Assembly: GCF_001898805.1 (NCBI RefSeq)
Contig: NZ_MKVJ01000007.1
Location: 1 to 64,000 of the forward strand
DNA length: 64,000 bases
DNA from: Leifsonia sp. 71-9
GTDB taxonomy: Bacteria; Actinomycetota; Actinomycetes; Actinomycetales; Microbacteriaceae
Direction: 5' to 3'
Of the stretch, positions 5,385 to 52,787 are shown one piece after another. The stretch's first letter is position 1, and each line of letters opens with the position of its first letter. The translations under genes were made by a program, and so were the position numbers. The notes beneath the pieces are model-generated. The model was not told where the DNA came from. It saw only the letters and a list, made by a program, of their open reading frames with translations, and ran no database searches.

Positions 5385-5545
5385 CCGGCCGGCCGATCAT
5401 AGCTTCCTCCGGCAGCTCCGTTCCCTCCGGTCGCTATTTGCAGACTCCACTCGCTGCGCTCCCTCCACTTAGCAACCGCTCCCTTCCGGGCACTGCGCTG
5501 CCTCCACGCGCTCTCGATCTCTCTGCCGGAACGGCAAAAAAACTG
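5385..5545 (+). repeat. Leader repeat copy R3
   Basis: Noncoding DNA that repeats the architecture of R2: GGCCGGCCGATCA...TAGCT, then CACTCGCTGCGCTCCCTCC at 5448-5466, then CTCGATCTCTCTGCCGGAA and an A run. It leads into the gene at 5629. The 19-base core is identical to 3505-3523 and to the inverse of 35094-35112. Confidence 0.65.
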
Positions 5546-5628
5546 ATCGGCGGGAGAACCAAAGCAACACCCGCTGATTTGACACAGACCTATAGAAGGG
5601 TCGGTTGGTTGAGAGAGAGAAGGGAACG

Positions 5629-5910
5629 ATGAGCACACTCATTACGGACACCGATGACGTCACCCGGTTCTGTGGGGTCTTTTCCGACGTGACCCTCGCA
5701 CACGACGTCGCCGCGATGCTGGGATGCCGAGAGGCCGAAGCGCTGGCCGGGATCCTCCGGGCGCTGGGAGAGCCTGCAGCAGCCGATATGTGGCTGGACG
5801 CACACGCACACGGTGACGAGCCGGGGGACCAGCACTACCAGACTGCACCCGAGCCCTACATCGTCCCGATCGACCCGATGGAGGACCTTCAATGCGACTC
5901 CTGCCAGTGA
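5629..5910 (+). CDS. Small protein with C-terminal CxSCQ tail
   Basis: A 93-residue acidic protein of unknown function. Its C terminus reads VPIDPMEDLQCDSCQ, which matches the end of the otherwise unrelated protein at 34705-35001 (VPVDPTDELYCESCQ). The body (LAHDVAAMLGCREAEALAGILRALGEPAAADMWLDAHAHGDE) looks helical and carries extra Cys and His residues, so metal or thiol chemistry is possible. The ATG at 5629 has AGAAGGGA upstream; an upstream GTG at 5605 has no ribosome site. Leader repeat R3 precedes it. A hairpin (CTGCC/GGCAG, 5901-5916) spans the stop codon. Confidence 0.6.
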   Translation: MSTLITDTDDVTRFCGVFSDVTLAHDVAAMLGCREAEALAGILRALGEPAAADMWLDAHAHGDEPGDQHYQTAPEPYIVPIDPMEDLQCDSCQ

Positions 5911-5978
5911 CGGCAGACAAGACGCAGGGACGCACGCGTTGCGTGCGCCCCTTCGATGCGCCTGAGCGGGGCATCCCC

Positions 5979-6506
5979 ATGACCACGTTCACGCCGGCAG
6001 AAATCATGGCCGGAGGCATCCAGGACACACGCGAGAGCTTCGCGAACCTGTACGTCGAGCTGCACGAGCTTCGCCAAGAAGCGGCGTACTACTATCACCG
6101 CGCCTTCGTCGACGACGGGCCCGAACCCCAGCAGGAGGGTGTGGTGGACTTCCATCCCGCACCACCGGAGTTCGGTGGCAAGGATCTCGAACGGCCGGCA
6201 CGGCGCGTCCGAATGGACCGCCTCACCCAGAAGGGCCTTGCGCTGTACGTGCACGGCGTTCGCGCAGCGCTGCGGGAACGAGACGAGCTCCTGCACCAGA
6301 TTGAAGACGCCGAGCACGACATAGAGCGCATGCTCATCGCGATGGACGGAACAATCACCCACATTCTCGACCGCCACCTGCACTACATGACCGTCCTCGA
6401 GCACCGCACGAAGAACGAATACCAGCCGGCGCCGCTCGCCCCCTGGGACGTACCGATCCGACAACCAGGCACCGGCGAATACCTACGGCCGCTACAGGGC
6501 GAATAG
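5979..6506 (+). CDS. Hypothetical plasmid protein, helical
   Basis: A 175-residue protein without a recognised domain. It is rich in charged helices, including a region about residues 85-125 that could be a coiled coil (HGVRAALRERDELLHQIEDAEHDIERML). There is no signal peptide. The frame is open back to 5892, but the ATG at 5979 is preferred because GCGGGG precedes it and the upstream codons overlap two hairpins (5901-5916 and GCACGC/GCGTGC at 5932-5946). It follows the CxSCQ protein in the same direction and is probably translated from the same mRNA. Confidence 0.6.
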   Translation: MTTFTPAEIMAGGIQDTRESFANLYVELHELRQEAAYYYHRAFVDDGPEPQQEGVVDFHPAPPEFGGKDLERPARRVRMDRLTQKGLALYVHGVRAALRERDELLHQIEDAEHDIERMLIAMDGTITHILDRHLHYMTVLEHRTKNEYQPAPLAPWDVPIRQPGTGEYLRPLQGE

Positions 6507-7759: not shown

Positions 7760-8119
7760 ATGCTGACTATTGCTTCGCGTCTCGATGTAATGAACCGGCT
7801 CGGTCGGGCCATGGCGGATCCCACGCGTTCTCGCATTCTGATGACTCTGCTTGGTGGGCCGAGCTACCCGGCCGTGCTCTCGCGTGAACTGGTGCTCACG
7901 CGTTCGAACGTGTCGAATCATCTGACGTGTCTGCGCGACTGTGGGATTGTCGTCGCTGAGCCGGAGGGGAGACAGACCCGTTATGAGATCGCGGACCCGC
8001 ACCTGGCCGCCGCGTTGATCGCTCTCGTGGACGTGACGCTGGCCGTCGACGAGAACGCGCCGTGCGTCGATGCGTCCTGCACCGTGCCGGGCTGCTGCGG
8101 GACGGAGGCCGGCGCGTGA
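7760..8119 (+). CDS. cmtR: CmtR-type Cd(II)/Pb(II)-sensing repressor (ArsR/SmtB family)
   Basis: A 119-residue winged-helix repressor closely modelled on mycobacterial CmtR. The three metal ligands fall at the same positions as in that protein: Cys57 and Cys61 in TCLRDC on the recognition helix, and Cys102 in the C-terminal PCVDASC tail. More cysteines follow (VPGCCG). Metal binding releases it from DNA. It overlaps the P1B ATPase gene by four bases and should control the ATPase-lspA unit. The start is the ATG at 7760, only about 20 bp from a palindrome-rich stretch (GTATGATCATCAC) that is a candidate operator. Confidence 0.9.
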   Translation: MLTIASRLDVMNRLGRAMADPTRSRILMTLLGGPSYPAVLSRELVLTRSNVSNHLTCLRDCGIVVAEPEGRQTRYEIADPHLAAALIALVDVTLAVDENAPCVDASCTVPGCCGTEAGA

Positions 8120-10026
8120 GGGCGGTGACGAAGTCTCAGGTGGAGGGGTCTGCGGTCGGCGACGATGATGATGACGACCATGATGGGCCGTGGTGGCAGG
8201 ATCGCGGGATTATGGTCCCGGCGTTCTCAGGTGTCGCGTTCCTTGCGGGTCTGATCTGCGGGTGGTCGGGTGCGGAGATCCTGGCGTTGGTGCTGTTCTG
8301 GATCGGATTGCTGCTCGGCGCGTCGACGTTCACACCTGGGGCGATCCGGAAGCTGTTCAAGGGCAAGCTCAGCATCAGCTTGCTGATGACGATCAGCGCG
8401 GTCGGCGCGGTCATCCTCGGCTACGTCGAAGAAGCGGCCGCACTGGCGTTCCTGTACTCGATCGCGGAAGCACTCGAAGACAAGGCGATGGACCGCGCCC
8501 GCGGCGGCCTGCGCGCACTGTTGAAGCTCGTCCCGGAGACGGCGACGGTCCGACGCGACGGGGCCTCGGTCGAGATCGCGGCGAAGGACCTCACCGTCGG
8601 CCAGATTATGCTTGTCCGCCCCGGGGAGCGGATCGCGACCGACGGGATCGTCCGCTCGGGCCGTTCCAGCCTGGACACCTCTGCGATCACCGGCGAGTCG
8701 ATCCCGGTCGAGGTCGAACCCGGAGACGCGGTCTCCGCCGGTGCGATCAACACCGCCGGGGCACTCGAAGTTCAGGTCTCTGCGGCGGGGACAGACAACT
8801 CGCTGACCACGATTGTCGAGCTTGTCGAGCAGGCCCAGGCGGAGAAGGGCGACCGCGCGCGTCTCGCGGACCGGATCGCCCGCCCCCTGGTCCCCGGCGT
8901 GCTGATCCTCGCGGCCCTTGTCGCGCTGATCGGGTCCCTGTTCGGTGACCCGGAGTTGTGGATCACCCGGGCTCTGGTCGTGCTCGTCGCCGCGTCGCCG
9001 TGTGCCCTGGCGATCTCGGTGCCGCTCACGGTCGTAGCCGCGATCGGCGCGGCCAGCAAGTTCGGTGTGATCATCAAGTCCGGCGCAGCCTTCGAACGTT
9101 TCGGCGCGATCCGGTACGTCGCCGTCGACAAGACCGGCACCCTCACCCGCAACCAGCCGGCCGTTACGGCGGTCCTCACGGCCGACGGCGTCACCGAACG
9201 CCAGGCGTTGGAGTGGGCGGCTGCGCTGGAGCAGCACAGCACCCACCCGCTCGCCGCTGCGATCACCGCAGCCGCCCCCGGTGTCCCTGCGGCCCTCGAT
9301 GTGACCGAGCAGGCCGGGCACGGCATCGAAGGCACCGTCGACGGCGCACGGATCACCGTTGGCAGCCCTCGCTGGCTCGACGCCGAGAGCCTTGGGAGCC
9401 AGGTCACGAGCCTGGAGGAGCAGGGTATGACCGTCGTGATCGTGCACCGCGGCGGGGCATCGGTCGCCGCGATCGGCGTCCGAGACGAGCTGCGCCCCGA
9501 GGTACCGGAGGTCGTGCGCACCCTCGCGGCCCAGGGTGCCGGCGTGACCATGCTGACCGGCGACAACGCCCGCACCGCGCGCGCTCTGGCCGCGCAAGCC
9601 GGTATCGGCGACGTGCGCGCCGAGCTCCGCCCCGAGGACAAGGCCGCGGCGATCGGCGAGCTGTCCCAGGCAGGATCGGTCGCGATGATCGGCGACGGCA
9701 TCAACGACGCCCCCGCTCTCGCCGCCGCCGATATCGGCATCGCGATGGGAGCGACCGGCTCCGACGCCGCGATCGAATCAGCCGATGTCGCCTTCACCGG
9801 GCATGATCTGCGGCTCATCCCGCGCGCGTTCGACCACGCCCGCCGCGGACGCCGCATTATTAACCAGAACATCATCCTGTCGCTGCTGATCATCACCGCC
9901 CTGCTCCCGCTGGCACTGTTCGGCGTCCTCGGGCTCGCAGCCGTCGTCCTGGTCCACGAGATCGCGGAGGTCATCGTGATCCTCAACGGACTCCGTGCGG
10001 CGCGCACCCGAAACGGCGTCTCATGA
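8116..10026 (+). CDS. P1B-type metal-efflux ATPase with SPC motif (CadA/CtpD-like)
   Basis: A heavy-metal pump of 636 residues. The N-terminal tail is an Asp/His run (DDDDDDHD) rather than a CxxC metal-binding domain. The membrane metal motif is SPC (VAASPCALAIS), the phosphorylation site is DKTGTLTRNQ, and GDGINDAPAL is the hinge. The last helix carries HEIAEVIVILNGLRA, similar to P1B-4 pumps. SPC-type pumps export Co, Zn, Cd or Pb; the CmtR neighbour favours Cd/Pb. The GTG at 8116 overlaps the cmtR stop and has GGAGG seven bases upstream. It is followed by lspA with a four-base overlap. Confidence 0.9.
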   Translation: MRAVTKSQVEGSAVGDDDDDDHDGPWWQDRGIMVPAFSGVAFLAGLICGWSGAEILALVLFWIGLLLGASTFTPGAIRKLFKGKLSISLLMTISAVGAVILGYVEEAAALAFLYSIAEALEDKAMDRARGGLRALLKLVPETATVRRDGASVEIAAKDLTVGQIMLVRPGERIATDGIVRSGRSSLDTSAITGESIPVEVEPGDAVSAGAINTAGALEVQVSAAGTDNSLTTIVELVEQAQAEKGDRARLADRIARPLVPGVLILAALVALIGSLFGDPELWITRALVVLVAASPCALAISVPLTVVAAIGAASKFGVIIKSGAAFERFGAIRYVAVDKTGTLTRNQPAVTAVLTADGVTERQALEWAAALEQHSTHPLAAAITAAAPGVPAALDVTEQAGHGIEGTVDGARITVGSPRWLDAESLGSQVTSLEEQGMTVVIVHRGGASVAAIGVRDELRPEVPEVVRTLAAQGAGVTMLTGDNARTARALAAQAGIGDVRAELRPEDKAAAIGELSQAGSVAMIGDGINDAPALAAADIGIAMGATGSDAAIESADVAFTGHDLRLIPRAFDHARRGRRIINQNIILSLLIITALLPLALFGVLGLAAVVLVHEIAEVIVILNGLRAARTRNGVS

Positions 10027-25010: not shown

Positions 25011-25643
25011 ATGTTCGTCGGCTATATGCGCGTGTCGAAGTCCGATGGATCACAGACGACGGATCCGCAGCGTGATTCGCTGCTTCAGGCCGGTATCGAT
25101 GAGGCGCAGCTATACGAAGATCGGGCGTCGGGGAAGAAGGACGATCGGCCCGGTCTCGCCGCCTGCCTCAAAGCGTTACGCGACGGCGATACATTGATCG
25201 TTTGGAAACTCGACCGACTCGGCCGCAACCTGCACCACCTGGTGAACACGGTACACGACCTCACCGCGCGCGGTGTCGGGCTGAAGGTCCTGACCGGGCA
25301 AGGCGCCGCGATCGATACTACGACCGCCGCCGGGAAGCTCGTATTCGGGATCTTTGCCGCTCTCGCGGAGTTCGAGCGTGAGTTGATCTCTGAGCGAACC
25401 GTCGCCGGTCTCGTGTCCGCCCGAGCGCGCGGGCGTACCGGAGGCCGACCATTCACGATGACACCGGCGAAGGTGCGCACCGCGATGGCCGCGATGGGGC
25501 AGCCGGAGACGAACATCGGTGAGCTGTGCAAGGAGCTGGGAATCTCGCGACAGACGCTGTACCGCCACGTGTCACCAAGCGGGGAAGTGCGAGCGGATGG
25601 CCTGCGTGTCATCGGCCGGAAGAACTCGGGGCCGCGGAGTTAG
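25011..25643 (+). CDS. Serine resolvase/invertase
   Basis: A 210-residue recombinase of the Tn3 resolvase family. Catalytic Ser is in YMRVSKSDGSQ, followed by DGDTLIVWKLDRLGRNLHHLV and FAALAEFERELISERT, and an HTH near the end (IGELCKELGISRQTLYRHV). It is intact. No matching transposase gene is next to it, so it is probably what remains of a transposon that delivered the neighbouring cargo. GGGAGTTCGCG precedes the ATG. Confidence 0.9.
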   Translation: MFVGYMRVSKSDGSQTTDPQRDSLLQAGIDEAQLYEDRASGKKDDRPGLAACLKALRDGDTLIVWKLDRLGRNLHHLVNTVHDLTARGVGLKVLTGQGAAIDTTTAAGKLVFGIFAALAEFERELISERTVAGLVSARARGRTGGRPFTMTPAKVRTAMAAMGQPETNIGELCKELGISRQTLYRHVSPSGEVRADGLRVIGRKNSGPRS

Positions 25644-25820: not shown

Positions 25821-27077
25821 TCATACGGTCGTGATTGGGGCGGTCTCCGTGGAGTGTGTCTGGGGTTCGCGTCGTCGCCAGTCGTCGGGGATCGCAGCCT
25901 CCAGCGCGTCATCGACGGTGACCACACCGAGGAGGTGCCCTTGGTGGTCGATGACGGGGAGCACCATGAGATTGAAGTCGGCCATGCGGGTGGTGACATC
26001 GACGACGTCGTCTTCTGGTGATGCATGCACGGGGTCGCGGTCTGCGATCTCTGCGAGCGTAGCCTCCGGGTCGGCTTGGAGGACGTGGATGAGGTTTACG
26101 GCTCCCGAGAGAGCGCCGTCCGTGTCGGTGCAGTAGATGGTGAGGAGAGCCTCCGCCTGCTGGTCGCGCGCGGAACGGATCCGTTCGATCGCGTTGCGTA
26201 CCAGCTCGGTGCCGGGCATGGCGAGGAAGTCCAGGCCCATGAGGCCGCCGGCTGTGGCTCCGTGATAGCCGAGCAGTCGCAGGACCGATGACCGCTGCGG
26301 CTCGGGCAGCAGATCGAGGACCCCCTGGCGCCGCTGCTGCGGGAGGTCGAGGATGGCGTCGGCGGCGTCGTCGGCGCGCATCCGGCTGAGAACGGAGGCG
26401 ACGTCGTCGAGGCTGCGGCTTTTGAGCAGTTGGGATTGGCTGTCGTCGTCGAGTTCTTCGAACACGTCGGCTTCGAGTTCGGGATCGCTGTGCACCTGGG
26501 TGAGCAGGTCGTCCTGCTCCCTGCTCGAGGCCGATTCGATCAGGTCGGCGATCTGCGCGGGCTTCAATCGCCGCAGCTGCCCGAACGGGGAACGCACCAC
26601 GGCGGATGGTTGGTGACCGATCAACGCTTCGAAGGAACGCCAGTCGCGGACCTGGTGCTGGCCGCGCGGTTTCGGGCCGAGCCAGCGGTGCTTGTGGACG
26701 TCGAGGCCGGTGACCACCCACCCTTCGGTGGTCTGGGTGAGGGTGATGTCATGTGCGCGAACCAGGGCGGCGCGGTCGATATCGATCAGCCGGTGCCCCA
26801 GCACGTCCGCGTTCAGCAGGACCTCGCCGTTGCGGCGTTCAAACGGCCGCAGGTCCAGTCGCGCCGTGGAGAGGGTGATGCGGTCGCGGGTGATTTCGGT
26901 CACTGCGGAGACGGGGACGAAGATGGATGCGGATCCGACTCGCACGACGAGCCCGGCCAGTGCCGGATAGTTGTCGGCATGCAGACGGACGATCAGGTCG
27001 GACAGTTTGCCGAGCGGTTCGTGTTTCGCGTCGATCACGGCGTGTTTGAGCAGTTCGGCCAGTGTGACGGTGTTCAT
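25821..27077 (-). CDS. Soluble MgtE-like regulatory protein (PRC barrel, MgtE-N, CBS pair)
   Basis: A 418-residue protein with no membrane segment. Residues about 1-80 look like a PRC barrel (LSDLIVRLHADNYPALAGLVV, IFVPVSAVTEIT), and a second barrel-like segment follows (DVLGHRLIDIDRAALVRAHDI). Residues about 190-290 match the MgtE N domain superhelix (LLTQVHSDPELEADVFEELDDD, VLSRMRADDAADAILDLP). Two CBS domains end it (LLTIYCTDTDGALSGAV, LPVIDHQGHLLGVVTVDDAL). In true MgtE these parts sense Mg and gate a linked channel, which is absent here. It follows the NRAMP-like gene by 43 bp and may gate that transporter. GGGAG precedes the ATG. Confidence 0.85.
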   Translation of the reverse strand: MNTVTLAELLKHAVIDAKHEPLGKLSDLIVRLHADNYPALAGLVVRVGSASIFVPVSAVTEITRDRITLSTARLDLRPFERRNGEVLLNADVLGHRLIDIDRAALVRAHDITLTQTTEGWVVTGLDVHKHRWLGPKPRGQHQVRDWRSFEALIGHQPSAVVRSPFGQLRRLKPAQIADLIESASSREQDDLLTQVHSDPELEADVFEELDDDSQSQLLKSRSLDDVASVLSRMRADDAADAILDLPQQRRQGVLDLLPEPQRSSVLRLLGYHGATAGGLMGLDFLAMPGTELVRNAIERIRSARDQQAEALLTIYCTDTDGALSGAVNLIHVLQADPEATLAEIADRDPVHASPEDDVVDVTTRMADFNLMVLPVIDHQGHLLGVVTVDDALEAAIPDDWRRREPQTHSTETAPITTV

Positions 27078-27120: not shown

Positions 27121-28761
27121 CTAGTGGCCTAGGGCGAGTTGGACGACCCGGACGACGACCAGGATCATCGCGACGAGCAGGTAAGTGCGCAGCACGGTCA
27201 GTCCGATGCGGCGACCGGCCGAGACCTCGGGACGGGCGAGCAGGGTGAGCGGAGGCATCCGCCAGTTCATGCGCTGGCTGCGGTCGACGGGTTCCTGCAC
27301 CACCGCGGACCGTCCTCGCCGCGAGACGGCGAGAACGATGCCGGCGACGATGGTGATCGCGCTGCCGCCGCCGAGGATCCAGAGGATGGTCGATGAAGTG
27401 ATGTCGGGAAAGAGCACGCTTGCGGTGAGCACGATCGACAACATGACCAGAATGGCGATGACGATCGAGGTGAACAGGTTGAGCCACCGGCCGTTGACCC
27501 AGGGTCCGAGAACCTGCTTGTCATTGCAGAGCAGCAGCAGGAACACGGTCGCCGACGGCAGGAGCACACCCGCGAGCGTTTGCACGCCGACGGTCAGGAG
27601 TCCGAGGGGGCTGCCAGGGATGAGGACGACCACCGCCGACACCAGCAGCAGTCCCGCGAACACCGCGTAGAACCCCTTCGCCTCGCTCGGCTTGCGGTGC
27701 AGGGAGTGTTTGAGCCCGAGGAAATCGCCGAGCGCATACGACGTGGAAAGCCCCACCGCCGCAGCGCCGATGATCGAGGCGTCGATCAGTGCGATCGCGA
27801 AGAGCACACCGGCGATCTGCCCGACGTACGTGCCGAGGCCTTTCGCAACGCCCAGCGCATCGGTGAAGTTGCCGAACTCCGGGCGACCGGCAAACGTCGC
27901 GGCGGTGAAGGAGATGATGAGGCCCGCGCCGACGATCACGACCACGATGCCGATCCACAGGTCGGCCTTCTCGTAGTTCATGAAGCGCGGGGTGATGCGC
28001 TTGTCGATCACATACGACTGCTGGAAGAACAGCTGCCAAGGCGCAACAGTGGTGCCGACGATGCCGATGATCAGCAGCATCACCGTCGACAGTTGGGCAC
28101 CGGCGGGCATTCCGGGGATCACGAAGTCGCGGGCGATCTGCCCAAGCGGTGGGTGCACCATGAGGAAGATCGGGATGAGCACCACCGAACCAGCGATGAG
28201 CACCATGCAGGTGCGCTCGAACCGTTTGAACGATCCGGTGCTCGCGGCCGCGAGCACAACCAGGGCAGAGACGATCACGCCGGGGATCTGCGGGATGCCC
28301 AGGTAGCTCAGTCCCAGGCTGATCCCGATGAATTCCGTCACGATCGTCAATGCGTTCAGCAGGAACAGGTCGATGACGCTGAACGCGCCCCAGAACTTGC
28401 CGAACCGCTCCAGGATGAGCCGGGCGTGCCCGACACCGGTGACCGCGCCGAGACGCAGCACCATCTCCTGGTTGACGTAGAGCACGGGCACCAGAAGAAG
28501 CAGTGTCCACAGGAGGGTGGTGCCGTAGTTCTGGCCGGCTTGGGTGTAGGTGCCGAAGGCACCGGCATCGTTGTCGCCCGCCATCACGATCAGGCCGGGA
28601 CCGACGATGGCCAGCAGTGTGCGGAGTTTCGCCGAGAGCTTCTGGCGGGGCGCGTCGTCGCCGAGACGGATAGTGCCCATCGCGCCTTCGATGTCGCCGA
28701 TGTGCGCGCTATCGAGCACAGCCGAGGTCGCGCCCGTGTCGGCGTGGTTCACGTCGGTCAT
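27121..28761 (-). CDS. NRAMP-related divalent metal transporter, probably Mg(II)-type (NRMT-like)
   Basis: A 546-residue transporter with about 11-12 membrane helices and a long N-terminal tail. The TM1 metal motif of Mn/Fe NRAMPs, DPGN, is replaced by DNDAG (IVMAGDNDAGAFGTYTQAG), and the TM6 MPH motif by APWQ (VGTTVAPWQLFFQQ). Loss of the metal-coordinating Met is the hallmark of the NRAMP-related Mg transporters. It lies behind an M-box riboswitch and ahead of an MgtE-like soluble protein, both of which favour Mg(II) import; Mn cannot be excluded. The ATG at 28761 has GGGAGGAGG upstream. Confidence 0.88.
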   Translation of the reverse strand: MTDVNHADTGATSAVLDSAHIGDIEGAMGTIRLGDDAPRQKLSAKLRTLLAIVGPGLIVMAGDNDAGAFGTYTQAGQNYGTTLLWTLLLLVPVLYVNQEMVLRLGAVTGVGHARLILERFGKFWGAFSVIDLFLLNALTIVTEFIGISLGLSYLGIPQIPGVIVSALVVLAAASTGSFKRFERTCMVLIAGSVVLIPIFLMVHPPLGQIARDFVIPGMPAGAQLSTVMLLIIGIVGTTVAPWQLFFQQSYVIDKRITPRFMNYEKADLWIGIVVVIVGAGLIISFTAATFAGRPEFGNFTDALGVAKGLGTYVGQIAGVLFAIALIDASIIGAAAVGLSTSYALGDFLGLKHSLHRKPSEAKGFYAVFAGLLLVSAVVVLIPGSPLGLLTVGVQTLAGVLLPSATVFLLLLCNDKQVLGPWVNGRWLNLFTSIVIAILVMLSIVLTASVLFPDITSSTILWILGGGSAITIVAGIVLAVSRRGRSAVVQEPVDRSQRMNWRMPPLTLLARPEVSAGRRIGLTVLRTYLLVAMILVVVRVVQLALGH

Positions 28762-28964
28762 AGTGATGCCTCCTCCCGCGAGGGGATGGAAAAAGAGGGT
28801 GAGAACGCGGCGGCACGTCGAACAGCGGTCTACGCCGCCGCGGGTGCGAGAATTTTGGCGCTCTAAGCCGTCATCGTCGACAGCCGGAAGCGCGGACTAT
28901 GGCTTTCGCTCACGGGTCTGCTCCTCTCGGTTCGCGACGCACACGGAGAAGCCACGGCCGGTCG

Positions 28965-29133
28965 GCGGTGGGTACCTCTCCTCGTAAGACCTTTGGCACT
29001 CCGCGGCGTGAACCCGTGAAACGGGAGCCAATCGGGACCATCCCTTACGCCGGGAGGGCCTGTCCTGACCCGGGGCGTCTCTCGACGTTCGGGGTCGCTG
29101 GCTTGTATCCGCGAAGGAGCCTCAGCTAACGAT
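28965..29133 (-). promoter_or_regulatory. M-box (ykoK-type) Mg(II) riboswitch
   Basis: On the minus strand the region begins GTTAGCTGAGGCTCC, continues with GGATACAAGCCAGCGACCCC and ACGTCGAGAGACGCC, has GGACAGGCCC...GGGATGGTCCCG, and ends near GTCTTACGAGGAGAGGTACC. These are the conserved blocks of the M-box aptamer, in order. M-box RNAs fold when Mg(II) is plentiful and shut off downstream Mg uptake genes. A GC-rich stem just after it (28956-28974 region) could be the expression platform. The controlled gene is the NRAMP-like transporter starting at 28761. Confidence 0.88.
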
Positions 29134-29151
29134 CAGCACCTTGCGATGATC

Positions 29152-29180
29152 ACTATACGCTGCACAATAATCCCGTGCAA
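29152..29180 (-). promoter_or_regulatory. Promoter of the M-box transcript
   Basis: On the minus strand, TTGCAC (29180-29175) and TATAGT (29157-29152) are separated by 17 bases. Transcription would start near 29145, about 12 bases before the M-box. Confidence 0.6.
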
Positions 29181-30232: not shown

Positions 30233-30823
30233 ATGACGGTTGTCGGATACGCGCGAGTCTCGAAGCGAGAACAGAACTCGCAGGCGCAGGAGGCCGAGCT
30301 GAAAGCCGCCGGCGCCGAACGAGTCTTCATCGACCACGGCGACTCGAGCCGGGTCAAAGACCGCCCGCAATGGGTCGCCTGCATGGACTACCTCCGCTTC
30401 GGTGACGTGCTGCTGGTGCGCCGGCTGGATCGCCTCGGCGGCACCGAGCGGATTCTGATTGAGACGCTGCACGAGCTCGAGGACAAGGGCGTCGATATCA
30501 AGAGCCTCACCGAACCGGTGATCGACACCACAAGCCCGATGGGCCGAGCACTGTTCGGCATCGTCGCCGTGTTCGCGCAGCTGCGCGTCGACACCATCCG
30601 CGAGAACACGCGGCTCGGGTTGGAGTACGCACGCGCCCAGGGTCGTGTCGGCGGCCGCCCCACGGTGATGACGCCGGAGCGCGTAGAGGTGGCACGTCAG
30701 ATGCGTGAGCAGACTCCGCCGGCGACGTGGGACACGATTGCCAAGACCCTCCGAGTCGGCTCGGCCACCGTCAGACGCGCCCTCGCCTCAAGCCCAGACA
30801 GAGGTCCAGGCTCTCTCAGGTAG
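30233..30823 (+). CDS. Serine resolvase/invertase
   Basis: A 196-residue recombinase. Catalytic Ser is in YARVSKREQNSQAQEAEL, with GDVLLVRRLDRLGGTERILI and IVAVFAQLRVDTIRENT following; note that the usual EFERELI helix is altered to QLRVDTI. The HTH is TWDTIAKTLRVGSATVRRAL. It is preceded by a VbhA-like antitoxin gene with which it is probably co-transcribed. GGGGGAGG lies before the ATG. Confidence 0.88.
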   Translation: MTVVGYARVSKREQNSQAQEAELKAAGAERVFIDHGDSSRVKDRPQWVACMDYLRFGDVLLVRRLDRLGGTERILIETLHELEDKGVDIKSLTEPVIDTTSPMGRALFGIVAVFAQLRVDTIRENTRLGLEYARAQGRVGGRPTVMTPERVEVARQMREQTPPATWDTIAKTLRVGSATVRRALASSPDRGPGSLR

Positions 30824-31869: not shown

Positions 31870-32547
31870 CTACGTGTAGGAGTGGTCCTCATCGTGCTCG
31901 TGGTCATCGTCTAGAAGCATTCCCACCGAGGTCGCACACGCGTCGCCCTTCCATGCCTCGACGCCCTCGCGGATGGCGAACACGACGATCACGAGGCCAG
32001 CGATTGCGTCGGCCCACCACCAGCCGAACAGCGTGTTCAGCAGCAATCCGATGAGGACCGCGGCTGAGAGGTAGGTGCAGATCAGGGTCTGTTTGGAGTC
32101 TGCGACAGCGGTCGCCGAGCCGAGTTCCCGGCCTGCTCGCCGTTCGGCGAAGGACAGGAACGGCATCACGACCACGCTGACGGCTGTGAGGACGATCCCG
32201 ACGGGTGAATGGTGAACCTCGACGCGCGCGAGCAGAGTCAGCAACGAGCTGACGGTGACGTAAGCGGCGAGGGCGAAGAACGCGATCGCGATGACCCGAA
32301 GGGTTGCCTTCTCCCAGCGCTCGGGGTCGCGCCTGGTGAACTGCCAAGCGACTGCCGCGGCGGAGAGGACCTCGATTGTTGAGTCCAGGCCGAAGCCGAC
32401 GAGTGCCGCAGAAGATGCTGCGCTGCCGGCGACGATCGCGATGACTGCCTCGATCAGGTTGTAGCCGATCGTCGCAGCGACGATCCACCGTATCCGGCGC
32501 TCGAGCAGCCCCCTGCGCGGGTTCGGCTGCGTATGCGTGTCGGTCAC
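31870..32547 (-). CDS. Cation diffusion facilitator-family transporter
   Basis: A 225-residue membrane protein with six hydrophobic segments of the CDF superfamily, with family-like SAALVGFGLDSTIEVLSA (TM2, metal Asp) and VADSKQTLICTYLSAAVLIG (TM5) segments. The usual cytosolic C-terminal domain is almost absent, replaced by a His/Asp tail DDDHEHDEDHSYT. It is coupled by a GTGA overlap to the ArsR gene upstream, so it probably exports the metal that repressor senses (Cd, Zn or Pb). Confidence 0.85.
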   Translation of the reverse strand: MTDTHTQPNPRRGLLERRIRWIVAATIGYNLIEAVIAIVAGSAASSAALVGFGLDSTIEVLSAAAVAWQFTRRDPERWEKATLRVIAIAFFALAAYVTVSSLLTLLARVEVHHSPVGIVLTAVSVVVMPFLSFAERRAGRELGSATAVADSKQTLICTYLSAAVLIGLLLNTLFGWWWADAIAGLVIVVFAIREGVEAWKGDACATSVGMLLDDDHEHDEDHSYT

Positions 32548-32876
32548 GAGCAGGTGCAAACCTCTCCAGCGCAGCAACCGGGCTCAACGTAGAGCACCAC
32601 CCGCAGCAGCTCTTCCATCGCCGGCGCCAGATGCGGATCGGCCAACCGATACCAAGTCCGCCGCCCGTCAGGGACCGCATCCACCAAGCCACACCCGCGC
32701 AAACAGGCCAGCTGGTTCGACATCACCTGACGAGACACCCCGAGCGCGTCAGCCAGATCCGACGGATACGCCGGCGCCTCCCGCAACGCCAACAGGATGC
32801 CGACCCGGGTCGGGTCCGAAAGGGCGTGCCCGAACCGGGCCAACGCCCCGGTGTGGGTTGCGGTCGCAGTTGCCAT
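32544..32876 (-). CDS. CmtR-like ArsR-family metal repressor
   Basis: A 110-residue winged-helix repressor. It has Cys58 and Cys62 in ACLRGCGLV at the DNA-reading helix, as in CmtR, and a Cys-rich tail CCAGEVCTCS, which together suggest a Cd/Pb site. It differs from the cmtR at 7760 in sequence, so it is a paralogue rather than a copy. It overlaps the CDF gene by four bases. A small palindrome GTTGCCATGCAAC spans its own start codon. Confidence 0.87.
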   Translation of the reverse strand: MATATATHTGALARFGHALSDPTRVGILLALREAPAYPSDLADALGVSRQVMSNQLACLRGCGLVDAVPDGRRTWYRLADPHLAPAMEELLRVVLYVEPGCCAGEVCTCS

Positions 32877-32947
32877 GCAACAACAGTACAGAGAACGCTG
32901 AATTAACGAAACCGTGTATCAATGCCCCACCGCAACCTGGACGCGGT

Positions 32948-32992
32948 TTGCGGATCGGAAGCGAATGATCTTTAATCTGCGTATGGATGCAG
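32948..32992 (+). promoter_or_regulatory. Leaderless promoter with metal operator, copy 2
   Basis: TTGCGG (32948-32953), a 17-base spacer and TTTAAT (32971-32976) place the start site at or next to the ATG at 32983, so the mRNA would be leaderless. The palindrome ATCTGC...GCAGAT spans the start codon and is the likely operator of the ArsR protein it precedes. A near copy is at 29181-29200. Confidence 0.55.
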
Positions 32993-33363
32993 ATAAGGCG
33001 ATATGTGGACGCCTCCCCGACAGTCAGTACGTCGAACTCGCGGTCGAGGTGTTCGCCATGCTGGCCGACGCGACCCGTGTACGGATCGTGCTCGCGCTCA
33101 AGGATGCGGGGGAGCTGTCGGTGAACCACCTGGCGGACATCCTGGACAAGCAGCCGGCTGCGGTCTCCCAGCACCTCGCGAAGCTTCGGCTCGCTCGGAT
33201 CGTCTCGACGCGCCAGGACGGCCAGCGGGTGTTCTACCGGCTCGAGAATGAGCACGCGAGCCGTCTCGTGACAGATGCAGTCTTTCAGGCGGAGCACTCG
33301 CTCGGTGGGACACCGCGGCACCATCACACCGAGGCCAATCTCGGCGCGGAGGCGAGCGCGTGA
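32983..33363 (+). CDS. SmtB/NmtR-type ArsR-family metal repressor
   Basis: A 126-residue repressor with the HTH LADILDKQPAAVSQHLAKLR. It lacks the CmtR cysteines and instead has an alpha5-type ligand set (ENEHASR ... FQAEHSLGG) with a His-rich tail TPRHHHTE, as in Zn or Ni/Co sensors. The ATG at 32983 is chosen because the promoter predicts a leaderless transcript there; ATG 32965 is possible. It overlaps the CDF gene at 33360 by four bases and should control it. Confidence 0.87.
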   Translation: MDADKAICGRLPDSQYVELAVEVFAMLADATRVRIVLALKDAGELSVNHLADILDKQPAAVSQHLAKLRLARIVSTRQDGQRVFYRLENEHASRLVTDAVFQAEHSLGGTPRHHHTEANLGAEASA

Positions 33364-34448
33364 GCGGAACGCACACCCACGAGCACGACGACCACGGGCA
33401 CACGCACGACCACGGGCACACGCACGACCACGGGCACGATCACGGGGACGGGCACGGGGACGGGCACGGTCATAGCCATGAGCACGGTCATCAGCATCCG
33501 ACCGGCTTCAAGGGATTCTTGTACGGGCTGTTCGTCCCGCACTCGCACGACGCCGCCGACTCCATCGACGACGCTCTTGAGGCGAGTACCGAGGGTGTTC
33601 GTGCGCTGAAGATCAGCCTGTTCATATTGCTGGGCACGACGCTCTTGCAGGCGATCATCGTCGGGTTCAGCGGGTCGGTCGCCTTGTTGGCGGACACCAT
33701 TCACAACTTCTCGGACGCGCTGACCGCGGTGCCGCTGTGGGTGGCGTTCGTGCTGGGCCGCCGAGTTGCGTCTCGCCGCTACACCTACGGTTACGGGCGA
33801 GCGGAGGATCTCGCTGGCCTGTTCATCATCGCCGTCGTCGCGCTCTCGGCGATAGTTGCCGCGTGGCAGTCGATTGACCGGCTCTTCCATCCGCATCCGC
33901 TTGAGAATCTCGGCTGGGTGATCGTTGCCGGCGTCATTGGCTTCGTCGGGAACGAGGCGGTTGCGATCTACCGCATTCGGGTCGGTCAGCGCATCGGCTC
34001 GGCCGCCCTTGTCGCCGACGGAGTCCATGCGCGCATCGACGGGTTCACGTCCCTCGCCGTGGTGATCGGTGCGCTGGGGGTGATGCTCGGTTTTCCGCTG
34101 GCGGACCCGATCGTGGGTCTGCTGATCTCTGCTGCGATCATCGTTCTGCTCTGGGGCACCGTCCGCAGCATCGGCCGACGCCTGCTCGACGGGATCGAAC
34201 CCGAGCTCGTCGACCAGCTCGAGCACGCGCTCGAGGAGACTCCCGGTGTCACCGCTGTTCCGCACGTGCAGTTGCGCTGGGTCGGCCACCGTCTGCACGG
34301 CGGCGCGCAACTGGTTGTCGACACGGAGAGTCTGCACGACGCGCAGCTGATTCTGGAGGCGGCGCGTTCCCACGCGCGCAGCCACCTCCGCAATCTCGAT
34401 GAGCTCCAGCTCGAGCTCGTACCGGAGGCAGCGCCTGCGTCGTCGTGA
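33360..34448 (+). CDS. CDF-family Zn/Co/Ni efflux transporter with His-rich N terminus
   Basis: A 362-residue exporter. The first 45 residues are a metal-buffering run dominated by HD/HG pairs. Six membrane helices follow, with NFSDALTAVPLWVAF in TM2 and VADGVHARIDGFTSLAVV in TM5 carrying the paired HxxxD metal ligands. A cytosolic ferredoxin-like C-terminal domain is present (LEETPGVTAVPHVQLRWVGHRLHGGAQLVV). It is translated from a GTG that overlaps the ArsR stop. The SmtB/NmtR-type partner suggests Zn, Co or Ni. Confidence 0.92.
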   Translation: MSGTHTHEHDDHGHTHDHGHTHDHGHDHGDGHGDGHGHSHEHGHQHPTGFKGFLYGLFVPHSHDAADSIDDALEASTEGVRALKISLFILLGTTLLQAIIVGFSGSVALLADTIHNFSDALTAVPLWVAFVLGRRVASRRYTYGYGRAEDLAGLFIIAVVALSAIVAAWQSIDRLFHPHPLENLGWVIVAGVIGFVGNEAVAIYRIRVGQRIGSAALVADGVHARIDGFTSLAVVIGALGVMLGFPLADPIVGLLISAAIIVLLWGTVRSIGRRLLDGIEPELVDQLEHALEETPGVTAVPHVQLRWVGHRLHGGAQLVVDTESLHDAQLILEAARSHARSHLRNLDELQLELVPEAAPASS

Positions 34449-45993: not shown

Positions 45994-48275
<2,282 letters not shown>

Positions 48276-48279
<4 letters not shown>

Positions 48280-50591: not shown

Positions 50592-52787
50592 ATGGGCACG
50601 CCAGAACAGGACCACAGCATGCACACCCCCACCTCGCGGCCGCCTGCCGGTCAGCACGACGGCATGGACCACGGCGCGATGGGACACGACCACCACGGCC
50701 ATGAACAGATGGATCACGCTGCGATGGAGCACGGCAGCATGGACCACAGCGGGCACGGCGGGCATGGTGACCACGTCGGCCAGTTCCGCCGGCTGTTCTG
50801 GATCATGCTCGTGGTGGCGATCCCGGTCGTCGTGTTCTCCCCGATGTTCGCAATGATCCTCGGCTACCCGCTTCCCGACGCGGCCTGGGTTGCGTGGATC
50901 TCACCCGTACTCGGCACTGTGATGTACGTGTGGGGCGGCAAGCCGTTCCTCACTGGCGCGGTCAGTGAACTGCGTGCGTTGAAGCCGGGAATGATGCTCC
51001 TGATCGCCCTGGCGATCACCGTCGCCTTCCTTGCCTCTTGGGGTGCCAGCCTCGGGCTGCTGGATCATCAGCTGGATTTCTGGTGGGAGCTGGCACTGCT
51101 GATCGTGATCATGCTGCTCGGACACTGGATCGAGATGCGGTCCCTCGCGCAGACCACCTCCGCGCTGGACTCGCTGGCGGCCCTGTTGCCGGATGAGGCC
51201 GAACGGGTCGAGGGTGAGACCACCGTGTCCGTCCCACCGGCCGAGCTGCAGCGCGGTGACCTGGTCGTGGTCCGGCCGGGCGGACGGGTACCGGCGGACG
51301 GCAGGATCGTCTCTGGTACGGCGAGCATGGACGAGTCGATGATCACCGGAGAATCCCGCACCGTCCGCCGTGACGTCGGAGACCCAGTCGTTGCCGGCAC
51401 CGTCGCAACCGACTCCGGACTGCGGATCGAAATCACCGCCGTCGGTGACGACACCGCCTTAGCTGGAATCCAACGCCTCGTCAGCGACGCCCAGAACTCC
51501 TCATCACGGGCGCAACGGATCGCTGACACCGCCGCCGGCTGGCTGTTCTGGTTCGCTCTCGGCTCCGCGGTGATCACGGCGCTCGTCTGGACGATGATCG
51601 GACAGCCGGATGACGCGGTCGTGCGAACGATCACTGTGCTGGTGATCGCCTGCCCTCATGCCCTCGGCCTGGCAATCCCCCTCGTCGTCTCGATCGCGAC
51701 CGAACGGGCCGCCCGCGGCGGCGTCCTGATCAAGGACCGGCTGGCGTTGGAGAGCATGCGCACGGTTGACACAGTCCTGTTCGACAAGACCGGCACCCTC
51801 ACAAAGGGCGAACCGACCGTCACCGCTATTCAGACCGCTGGCAGCATCCAGCAGGACGAACTCCTCGCTCTCGCAGCCGCAGCCGAGACCGACTCGGAGC
51901 ACCCGCTGGCGCGGGCGATCGTGAGCGCAGCAGGCACCCGCACACTTACCGTGCCGGCAGCGTCCGATTTCGAATCCTCCCCCGCCGTCGGAGTCTCCGC
52001 GACGGTCGACGGACACCGGGTGCAGGTCGGCGGCCCGAACCTGCTCGAGCAGGAGAACGCGGACGAGCTGGACGGTGTCGAAGAATGGCGTGCCGACGGT
52101 GCGATCATCTTGCACGTCCTCGTCGACGGACAGGTGGCCGGGGCCTTGAAACTGGCTGACGAGGTCCGGGAAGAGTCCCGGCAGGCCGTCCAGGCGCTTC
52201 AGGCGCAGAAGGTTCAGGTGGTGATGATCACCGGGGACGCCGAAGCGGTGGCGAAATCCGTTGCCACAGAGCTCGGAATCGACCGCTACTTCGCCGGTGT
52301 CCGCCCGGAGGACAAGTCCGCCAAGGTCAAGGAGCTGCAGGCCGAAGGCCGCAAGGTGGCGATGGTCGGCGACGGCGTCAATGATGCCCCCGCCCTCGCC
52401 CAGGCTGACGTCGGCATCGCGATCGGTGCCGGTACGGATGTGGCGATCGCCTCCGCTGGTGTGATCCTCGCCAGCGACGACCCCCGCTCGGTGCTCTCGG
52501 TGATCGAGCTATCCCGGGCCAGTTACCGCAAAATGAAGCAGAACCTCTGGTGGGCCGCCGGATACAACCTCATCTCCGTTCCCCTCGCCGCCGGCGTGCT
52601 CGCCCCGATCGGGTTCGTGCTGCCCATGTCGGTCGGCGCCCTGCTCATGTCCCTGTCGACCATCGTCGTCGCACTGAACGCGCAACTCCTGCGCCGGCTC
52701 GACCTGCGCCCCGAGACAAGTGTGCGCGCCGCAACCAACCAACCCGCACTCGCGGAACCGTCCCGGGAAACAGCATCAAGACGGTGA
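50592..52787 (+). CDS. copB: CopB-type P1B-3 ATPase (CPH motif)
   Basis: A 731-residue metal pump. The N terminus (residues about 8-65) is a His/Met-rich region (HDGMDHGAMGHDHHGHEQMDH) instead of HMA domains. The membrane motif is CPH (VIACPHALGLAIPLV), as in CopB-type pumps. DKTGTLTKGE and GDGVNDAPALAQ are intact. P1B-3 pumps export Cu(II) or Cu(I) and in some species silver. It complements the CPC-type CopA at 45994. There is no strong ribosome site; a leaderless mRNA is predicted. Confidence 0.93.
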   Translation: MGTPEQDHSMHTPTSRPPAGQHDGMDHGAMGHDHHGHEQMDHAAMEHGSMDHSGHGGHGDHVGQFRRLFWIMLVVAIPVVVFSPMFAMILGYPLPDAAWVAWISPVLGTVMYVWGGKPFLTGAVSELRALKPGMMLLIALAITVAFLASWGASLGLLDHQLDFWWELALLIVIMLLGHWIEMRSLAQTTSALDSLAALLPDEAERVEGETTVSVPPAELQRGDLVVVRPGGRVPADGRIVSGTASMDESMITGESRTVRRDVGDPVVAGTVATDSGLRIEITAVGDDTALAGIQRLVSDAQNSSSRAQRIADTAAGWLFWFALGSAVITALVWTMIGQPDDAVVRTITVLVIACPHALGLAIPLVVSIATERAARGGVLIKDRLALESMRTVDTVLFDKTGTLTKGEPTVTAIQTAGSIQQDELLALAAAAETDSEHPLARAIVSAAGTRTLTVPAASDFESSPAVGVSATVDGHRVQVGGPNLLEQENADELDGVEEWRADGAIILHVLVDGQVAGALKLADEVREESRQAVQALQAQKVQVVMITGDAEAVAKSVATELGIDRYFAGVRPEDKSAKVKELQAEGRKVAMVGDGVNDAPALAQADVGIAIGAGTDVAIASAGVILASDDPRSVLSVIELSRASYRKMKQNLWWAAGYNLISVPLAAGVLAPIGFVLPMSVGALLMSLSTIVVALNAQLLRRLDLRPETSVRAATNQPALAEPSRETASRR

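Follow-up and report, generated by a model that had tools for sequence, protein, structure and literature searches.

The minus strand of the window, a stretch of 64,000 nucleotides from Leifsonia sp. 71-9 (contig NZ_MKVJ01000007.1, positions 1 to 64,000), carries an M-box riboswitch aptamer followed by a short leader open reading frame (ORF) of a kind in which AGU serine codons are kept in frame, and then by genes for an NRAMP-related transporter (nrmT) and a detached, soluble MgtE-like protein. In our judgement these elements probably constitute a Mg-uptake operon on a mobile element, in which a translational riboswitch acting together with Rho controls expression, NrmT imports Mg and the MgtE-like protein is likely to provide feedback. 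Computation supplied the aptamer, the gene content, the side of the tree on which the transporter falls, the sensing residues of the MgtE-like protein, the leader ORF with its frame signal and a set of possible alternative pairings. The leader comprises the following features:

29152..29180, minus strand: candidate promoter TTGCAC-17-TATAGT (read by eye)
28971..29140, minus strand: M-box (magnesium) riboswitch aptamer (RF00380, whole model 1-169, 123.7 bits, E 3e-27)
28975..28983, minus strand: SD1-like strand GAGGAGAGG at the 3' end of the aptamer (from the sequence; pairs with the anti-SD in the fold)
28945..28951, minus strand: anti-Shine-Dalgarno CTTCTCC (from the fold of the window platform)
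28921..28928, minus strand: SD2 (GAGAGGAG) of the leader ORF (from the sequence)
28863..28913, minus strand: leader ORF (uORF), GTG start, 16 codons, MSESHSPRFRLSTMTA (from the sequence and the rule for SD-led ORFs)
28772..28862, minus strand: C-rich stretch from the leader ORF to nrmT, candidate Rho-loading region (from composition)

The first-pass annotation had placed an M-box on the minus strand at 28965-29133. Covariance-model search bears out the element, which scores above the curated cut-off across the full RF00380 model (123.7 bits vs an Rfam gathering score of 44) and is the sole match above a gathering score in an Rfam scan of the window; its ends had been set 6-7 bases off, the match spanning 28971-29140. 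A promoter had likewise been claimed 12 bases upstream. The candidate read by eye ends 11 bases upstream of the aptamer and TATAGT is seen at the same place in some nrmT relatives, but a consensus scan of the window leader returned no promoter at threshold because the -35 fits at just 3/6 positions; to judge from the sequence, a promoter ahead of the M-box is plausible. In several loci (L027, L028, L023, L185) a palindrome, TTGCG-N6-CGCAA or TTGCGCAA, lies near the -35, just 5' of the nrmT promoter, and the same type is found near the -35 in Streptomyces-type loci (e.g. L047, L050, L055); the palindromes near the -35 of the window are weaker than in either of these. In L185 a gene annotated as an ArsR/SmtB-type regulator adjoins the palindrome, which may represent a second, transcriptional metal control sitting on or replacing the M-box. 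A genome search also revealed a second M-box in the source genome, located on contig C21 ahead of a P-type ATPase gene that is called MgtA-kind from its N-terminal and E1-E2 domains.

The earlier reading of the leader recognised the M-box and overlooked what lies between aptamer and nrmT, namely the expression platform and a conserved leader ORF. Behind the window aptamer all parts of a mycobacterial-type translational M-box platform are present, i.e. SD1, anti-SD, SD2 and leader ORF. CTTCTCC forms the far side of a hairpin between the aptamer and GAGAGGAG, and in the minimum-energy fold of the window platform the SD1 strand GAGGAGAGG is paired with it. The mean unpaired value of the window SD2 is 0.49 with SD1 free, 0.06 without SD1 and 0.23 with a permuted SD1. 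Among the leaders compared, SD2 is more open in the ON than in the OFF model in 38 of 47 nrmT, 33 of 42 class and two of five order leaders (not more open in 9/47, 9/42 and 3/5, respectively), and the real SD1 beats a permuted one in 31/47, 26/42 and 0/5; in the second leader of the source genome SD2 accessibility changes in the wrong direction (0.29 vs 0.53). RNAalifold on a MAFFT alignment of 30 platforms gave zero consensus pairs and, since this alignment splits the anti-SD, it was replaced by an alignment-free duplex swap test. Cognate SD1:anti-SD duplexes outdid swapped ones in 30 Micrococcales-type leaders (one of 2000 permutations as low), and there was no signal in 17 Streptomyces-type (1337/2000 as low) or 41 class leaders (478/2000), all three comparisons being uncorrected for relatedness. 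Taken together, the accessibility and swap results across leaders give support for the SD1:anti-SD pairing that is good among the kin of the window and patchy in other leaders.

No terminator-like site was found in the window leader; the one site in the scan lies inside nrmT, and this is below the chance number. The C-rich stretch of the window has a composition of C 0.40 and G 0.26, and in 43 of the 46 leaders measured the stretch from leader ORF to nrmT has more C than G. Since a strong SD of its own precedes nrmT, some 100 nt behind the leader ORF, the latter must work via transcription or not at all. A translational switch combined with Rho has been proposed from measurements on a mycobacterial M-box (PMC12810186). 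Given these measurements, the lack of a terminator-like site and the prevalence of C over G, such a switch is, by analogy, the simplest and most likely reading of the window leader.

The Mg response, the direction of the switch, the part of Rho, Mg transport and action in trans we infer as follows. At high Mg, the aptamer would shut its end helix and sequester the SD1 strand, and the freed anti-SD would cover SD2; the leader ORF would then go untranslated, and Rho would end transcription ahead of nrmT, within the C-rich stretch. At low Mg, SD1 would pair with the anti-SD, the leader ORF would be translated and Rho would be kept off, which would allow nrmT and the MgtE-like gene to be made; NrmT would import Mg, and the MgtE-like protein, as a detached Mg-sensing cytosolic module, would probably exert post-translational feedback. 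Some M-box leaders from outside the class (L132-L134, L137, L138, L142, L143) have, by eye, the look of an intrinsic terminator, and the genes after these M-boxes encode MgtE-like PRC/CBS proteins with 27-30% identity; the type of platform thus differs between classes.

Leader ORFs were called without regard to the peptide, by requiring an SD ahead of an ORF of 7-69 codons that lies no more than 170 nt from the aptamer. By this rule an ORF is present in all 47 nrmT M-box leaders (the window and 46 of its 47 M-box relatives, L003 being left out as a near copy), in 42 of 47 other leaders of the class, in 5/16 order leaders and in 10/23 leaders of other classes (23 of 28 M-box places were used; five had no locus), the corresponding fractions in shuffles being 0.13, 0.21, 0.13 and 0.21. 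The class leaders without an ORF are L096 (which contains N), L109 (where a start codon is lacking), L114, L122 and L128; one family, f117, accounts for eight of the 11 order misses (L157-L164, M-boxes without an SD-led leader ORF), and several other-class ORFs, e.g. L142 and L143, fall within the downstream gene. Searching without the aptamer, a strict ORF-start pattern matched 12 times in 296 genomes, in all 12 cases at 72-94 nt behind an M-box; a reversed-pattern control gave zero matches, and neither leader of the source genome matched the strict pattern.

The ORF is also found in four nrmT relatives (L023, L027, L028, L041) that have no M-box match even at E 1, and in the Cellulomonas plasmid L185, which has no M-box at the cut-off. 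Among ten loci tested, leader ORFs of the usual look precede PPE, Nramp and P-type ATPase genes, and more divergent ones precede full MgtE, MgtC and ABC permease genes. In L103 and L155 an M-box with an SD-led leader ORF lies ahead of an ABC permease gene (BPD_transp_1), which is by sequence a candidate ABC-type magnesium importer.

Peptides of the class set typically start M-S-x-G/S-D-S-P, and those of the nrmT set have S, D or N at position 2 and H, D or S at position 5. Proline occurs at position 7 in the window, in 18/47 nrmT and in 29/42 class leader ORFs, with a further 14 Pro8 and two Pro6 in the nrmT set; the [SRK]P motif that was counted in leader ORFs was picked post hoc, after the data had been seen. 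Past about codon 9 both sequence and length vary widely. Starts rich in acidic residues and proline can be recognised clearly only in leaders from outside the nrmT set, and not in all of these; the window peptide has one acidic residue. Such starts (MESDPG, MDDDP, MDDGPSPAP, DSEP, DAEP) were seen in L129, L131, L136, L146, L153, L105-L107 and L151; we take these other-group ORFs to be similar to MgtL-type sequences in this respect, and the ORF of L151, for which a CTG start is needed, presumably resembles MgtL. Over codons 2-8, differences at codon positions 1, 2 and 3 number 209, 211 and 360 in 123 Micrococcales pairs, 190, 157 and 209 in 38 Streptomyces-type pairs and 170, 206 and 156 in 28 mycobacteria-type pairs. 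The synonymous-site excess stands out in the Micrococcales pairs alone, so that a clean signature of purifying selection does not extend over the leader peptide as a whole.

A sharper signal is found in the serine codons. AGU makes up 61% of serine codons at codons 2-12 of nrmT-linked ORFs, and 77 of 123 serine codons at codons 2-9, as compared with 29/1212 (2%) in nrmT. A general effect of start regions was considered and is not seen at the 5' ends of either gene, where AGU accounts for two of 28 serine codons in 28 nrmT genes (7%) and none of 11 in six genes for MgtE-like proteins. Among 88 non-redundant ORFs (nucleotides 4-36), AGT lies in frame in 164 of 166 cases and once in each other frame. 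The in-frame triplets are spread over eleven codon positions, and an RNA motif, as opposed to a codon, was therefore rejected. Because ORF starts had been picked by hand for this count, the picks differing from the 5'-most candidate in eight leaders, it was repeated with 75 non-redundant leaders that have a single candidate ORF (146/147 in frame) and with 95 leaders using always the 5'-most candidate (174/177); in leaders of other classes AGT is in frame in 3/4 cases from nine leaders, too few to judge. The frame counts of 164/166 and 146/147 argue, at the level of sequence, that ribosomes read the leader ORF.

A translational switch with Rho leaves the retention of AGU unexplained. It is possible, if somewhat unlikely, that the leader ORF is itself a ribosome-read sensor, with AGU-rich codons or a short Ser/Asp/His-Pro peptide that slow or abort ribosomes according to Mg or charged tRNA, by analogy with mgtL, mgtQ and similar Mg leader ORFs of enterobacteria. 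Such a sensor would fit the contrast in AGU share (61% at codons 2-12 vs 7% at nrmT 5' ends and 2% over nrmT), the five nrmT loci that retain the ORF and in which no M-box was found, the spread of the ORFs over PPE, Nramp and P-type ATPase genes and, more divergently, MgtE, MgtC and ABC permease genes, the acid-plus-proline starts of some other-group leaders (MESDPG, MDDGPSPAP, MDDDP), and the report that the Asp2 and Glu5 codons of Salmonella mgtQ matter (PMC8092293). On the other hand, the window peptide has a single acidic residue, there is no known reason for AGU over AGC or UCU, and the ORFs diverge widely in sequence and length beyond about codon 9. Two serial sensors, the M-box RNA and a separate ribosome-read ORF in which AGU (and CAU, GAU, GGU) would be kept for the manner of their decoding, are a rather doubtful proposition. 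G34-U wobble decoding of rare codons, or a shortage of charged serine tRNA, would then determine ribosome speed, which would report Mg or growth state and set the access of Rho; the leader ORF could act without an M-box behind another promoter control, and this kind of ORF could precede as many as six gene families. Classical M-boxes finish with an intrinsic terminator, and several actinobacterial leaders outside the class show, by eye, a stem and then a U run; a plain transcriptional or translational M-box of this kind on nrmT alone, with the leader ORF as a by-product, is nevertheless very improbable for the window, where the leader has no terminator-like site and the ORF is conserved and carries the in-frame AGU signal.

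Under the favoured switch with Rho, the genes controlled by the leader would be the following:

27121..28761, minus strand: nrmT, NRAMP-related (NRMT-side) transporter, 546 aa (Pfam Nramp 271 bits; structure match; tree)
25821..27077, minus strand: soluble double PRC-barrel-like / MgtE_N / CBS-pair protein, 418 aa (Pfam MgtE_N 71.8 bits and CBS; models, fold searches)

The Nramp-family gene predicted behind the M-box is confirmed by its Pfam score, and its assignment to a Mg-type lineage finds support in both tree and motifs. The best solved match of NrmT is EleNRMT (PDB 7qia, E 9e-54; next chain 4e-22), and in the tree it falls on the side of EleNRMT with support 100/100, three canonical Nramp rows lying on the other side, although, with very long reference branches, the position of EleNRMT is less certain than this value suggests. 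The tree has 45 rows: the window, 36 hand-chosen relatives out of 80, four other M-box loci and four references. All 21 M-box rows are actinobacterial, and proteobacterial rows without an M-box lie among them in two groups; over the 80 relatives, an M-box is present in 47. One M-box locus titled as a proteobacterial MAG (L012) is assumed to be mis-binned, given its 81% identity to the window and a sample code shared with L009. The equivalents of DPGN and MPH had been given as DNDAG and APWQ, which is right in substance and shifted by two residues in register: the DPGN equivalent is D65-A66-G67-A68 (inside DNDAGA) and that of A/CxxM is T237-T-V-A240. D65-A-G-A68, T237..A240 and E143 are invariant in the 25 aligned rows; the protein alignments omit L010 and L036 (stop codon near the range end) and L063 (stop in range). 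Thr237 and Ala240 thus supply the TxxA/T motif of NRMT helix 6, without the binding-site Met, in all 25 rows, and the TM6b His is absent from NrmT. The Mg clade motif is given as DxxG-TxxA/T (PMC8806188), so that helix 1 of NrmT, with D65-A-G-A68 in 25/25 rows, departs from the consensus by one residue.

The claim of a soluble protein with MgtE-N and CBS parts but no channel likewise holds: the pore domain of the MgtE channel (PF01769) was not found in the 418-aa protein by Pfam, nor does its model contain a helix of membrane-spanning length. In a fold search with this model (mean pLDDT 82.6, pTM 0.54), covering mainly residues 258-403, the top eight chains are all MgtE (Z 18.2-20.0, 220-251 residues aligned) with an rmsd of 14-16, i.e. 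the domains match MgtE but their modelled arrangement does not. The protein nonetheless holds the MgtE cytosolic Mg-sensor module, an N-domain and CBS pair with acidic residues at six of seven regulatory positions: E59>D in 29/30 rows, D91, D95, D214 and D247 in 30/30 each and D250>E/D in 29/30, the exception being D226>N in 30/30. Numbering follows Thermus MgtE, mapped with a three-residue tag offset inferred from the alignment and residue names, and we take D214 to be the seventh gating residue. The other six have been named for Thermus MgtE (PMC5882242). Residues 1-160 (26598-27077) make up a front that is foreign to MgtE and, modelled alone, resembles archaeal double PRC-barrel CdpB proteins, as in Archaeoglobus (E 6.5e-05); judging by the model, it is a possible docking part for the transporter.

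In 37 of the 80 loci a MgtE-like gene follows nrmT at a distance of no more than 400 nt; 26 of these have an M-box (out of 47 such loci) and 11 do not, the latter including some proteobacterial loci (e.g. L036, L049, L066). It does not adjoin nrmT in the remaining 43 (21 with an M-box alone, 22 with neither), among which the contig ends too soon in three; L044, one of the 21, is cut in this way. The partner is therefore frequent and not obligatory, and with 43 relatives lacking it beside nrmT, its regulation of the transporter in trans is something we continue to infer.

That manganese or other metals are the main substrates of the transporter, the MgtE-like protein being a general actinobacterial one unlinked to it, is unlikely. 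An Acidobacterium relative with a MgtE-like neighbour and no M-box fitted Mn transport (PMC4072509), helix 1 of NrmT lacks the DxxG of Mg-type NRMTs, the Cellulomonas plasmid copy has an adjoining gene annotated as an ArsR/SmtB-type regulator and no M-box match, and 278 of the 296 class genomes contain MgtE_N/CBS homologues, perhaps with channels among them. Against this stand the M-box in 47/80 relatives, the grouping of NrmT with EleNRMT, the absence of the TM6b His and the closer relationship among MgtE-like proteins of nrmT loci, which share 50-64% identity with that of the window (one 37%), whereas most of the class-genome homologues listed share 28-35% (seven rows 48-51%).

The proposed Mg-uptake operon is bordered by two serine resolvase genes:

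25011..25643, plus strand: serine resolvase bordering the operon (Pfam Resolvase)
30233..30823, plus strand: second serine resolvase, on the other side of the operon (Pfam Resolvase)

Also present in the window are genes for a relaxase, a transposase and a T4SS coupling protein, together with three P-type ATPases, of which one has an HMA domain; a location on a plasmid or conjugative element is thus likely. The claim of a plasmid-borne operon is in keeping with these genes and with three plasmid records (Leifsonia, Arthrobacter, Pseudarthrobacter) that combine M-box, leader ORF, nrmT and CBS gene; the fourth of the four plasmids opened (Cellulomonas) is without an M-box. On the Leifsonia plasmid (L182) a gene annotated as MgtC/SapB-family follows the CBS gene at 5441-6223. 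The three P-type ATPase and two CDF-type genes of the window (8062-10026, 45994-48279, 50592-52787, 31870-34448), with two ArsR-like ORFs seen by eye between the CDF-type genes, mark a metal-handling mobile region.

The first-pass annotation had proposed a plasmid-borne Mg-uptake operon with a MgtE-like sensor. The Mg operon, the plasmid-type element, the NRMT-side transporter and the sensing residues are supported; the arrangement is not new, the trio of M-box, nrmT and detached MgtE module being a known kind since 2014. Shin et al. (2014, PMC4072509) found the three together, for the most part in Clostridia and Deltaproteobacteria, and raised, as speculation, a feedback role for the MgtE-like fragment; in one case tested, a relative without an M-box that better fitted a manganese transporter, co-expression of the fragment gave no further rescue. 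Like the operons of that paper, the window has an M-box before an NRAMP-related gene and a gene for the detached cytosolic domain of MgtE, but the transporter gene comes first, unlike in the Acidobacterium example (PMC4072509), where the MgtE-like gene leads. Relative to the cases described there, the window adds an actinobacterial mobile-element context, the double PRC-barrel-like front and the leader ORF, and has no terminator-like site. NrmT shares with EleNRMT of Eggerthella lenta (PMC8806188, 7qia) the side of the tree, TxxA, the glutamate equivalent to E133 and the lack of TM6b histidines, but has DxxA for DxxG and a C-terminal extension in its 546 aa. Similarly, the MgtE-like protein resembles the cytosolic N and CBS domains of the MgtE channel (PDB 2yvy, 2zy9) in domain folds and 6/7 Mg-site residues, but it is poreless, has Asn at the D226 equivalent and carries two PRC-barrel-like domains in front.

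For the leader, the closest system is the mycobacterial pe20 M-box with uORF2/Rv1805A, where D'Halluin et al. (2026, PMC12810186) detected the leader ORF, measured how it is translated and described the peptide as peculiar to mycobacteria. Both have an SD at the aptamer end, an anti-SD, SD2 and a short conserved ORF, the proline near position 7 being found in the window and in part of the other leader ORFs, but leaders of the window type have other downstream genes, hosts beyond mycobacteria and the AGU bias, of which the passages of PMC12810186 drawn on here make no mention for uORF2. Enterobacterial leaders of the mgtL and mgtQ (PMC8092293) type likewise have a short ORF that controls Mg-transport genes, but they are not M-box leaders, and we claim no sequence homology. 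A search of the open-licence literature returned no report of the leader ORF outside mycobacteria.

The trio thus extends a published kind of operon by a member from an actinobacterial mobile element, in which the role of the detached MgtE module, left open in 2014, is directly testable. The main gain is the leader ORF. With it, a control element that a 2026 paper ascribed to mycobacteria alone is found in Micrococcales, in Streptomyces-type and further actinobacteria and ahead of several gene families, and the bias towards AGU offers a sharp and cheap route to ask whether the ribosome itself is a Mg sensor in actinobacteria.
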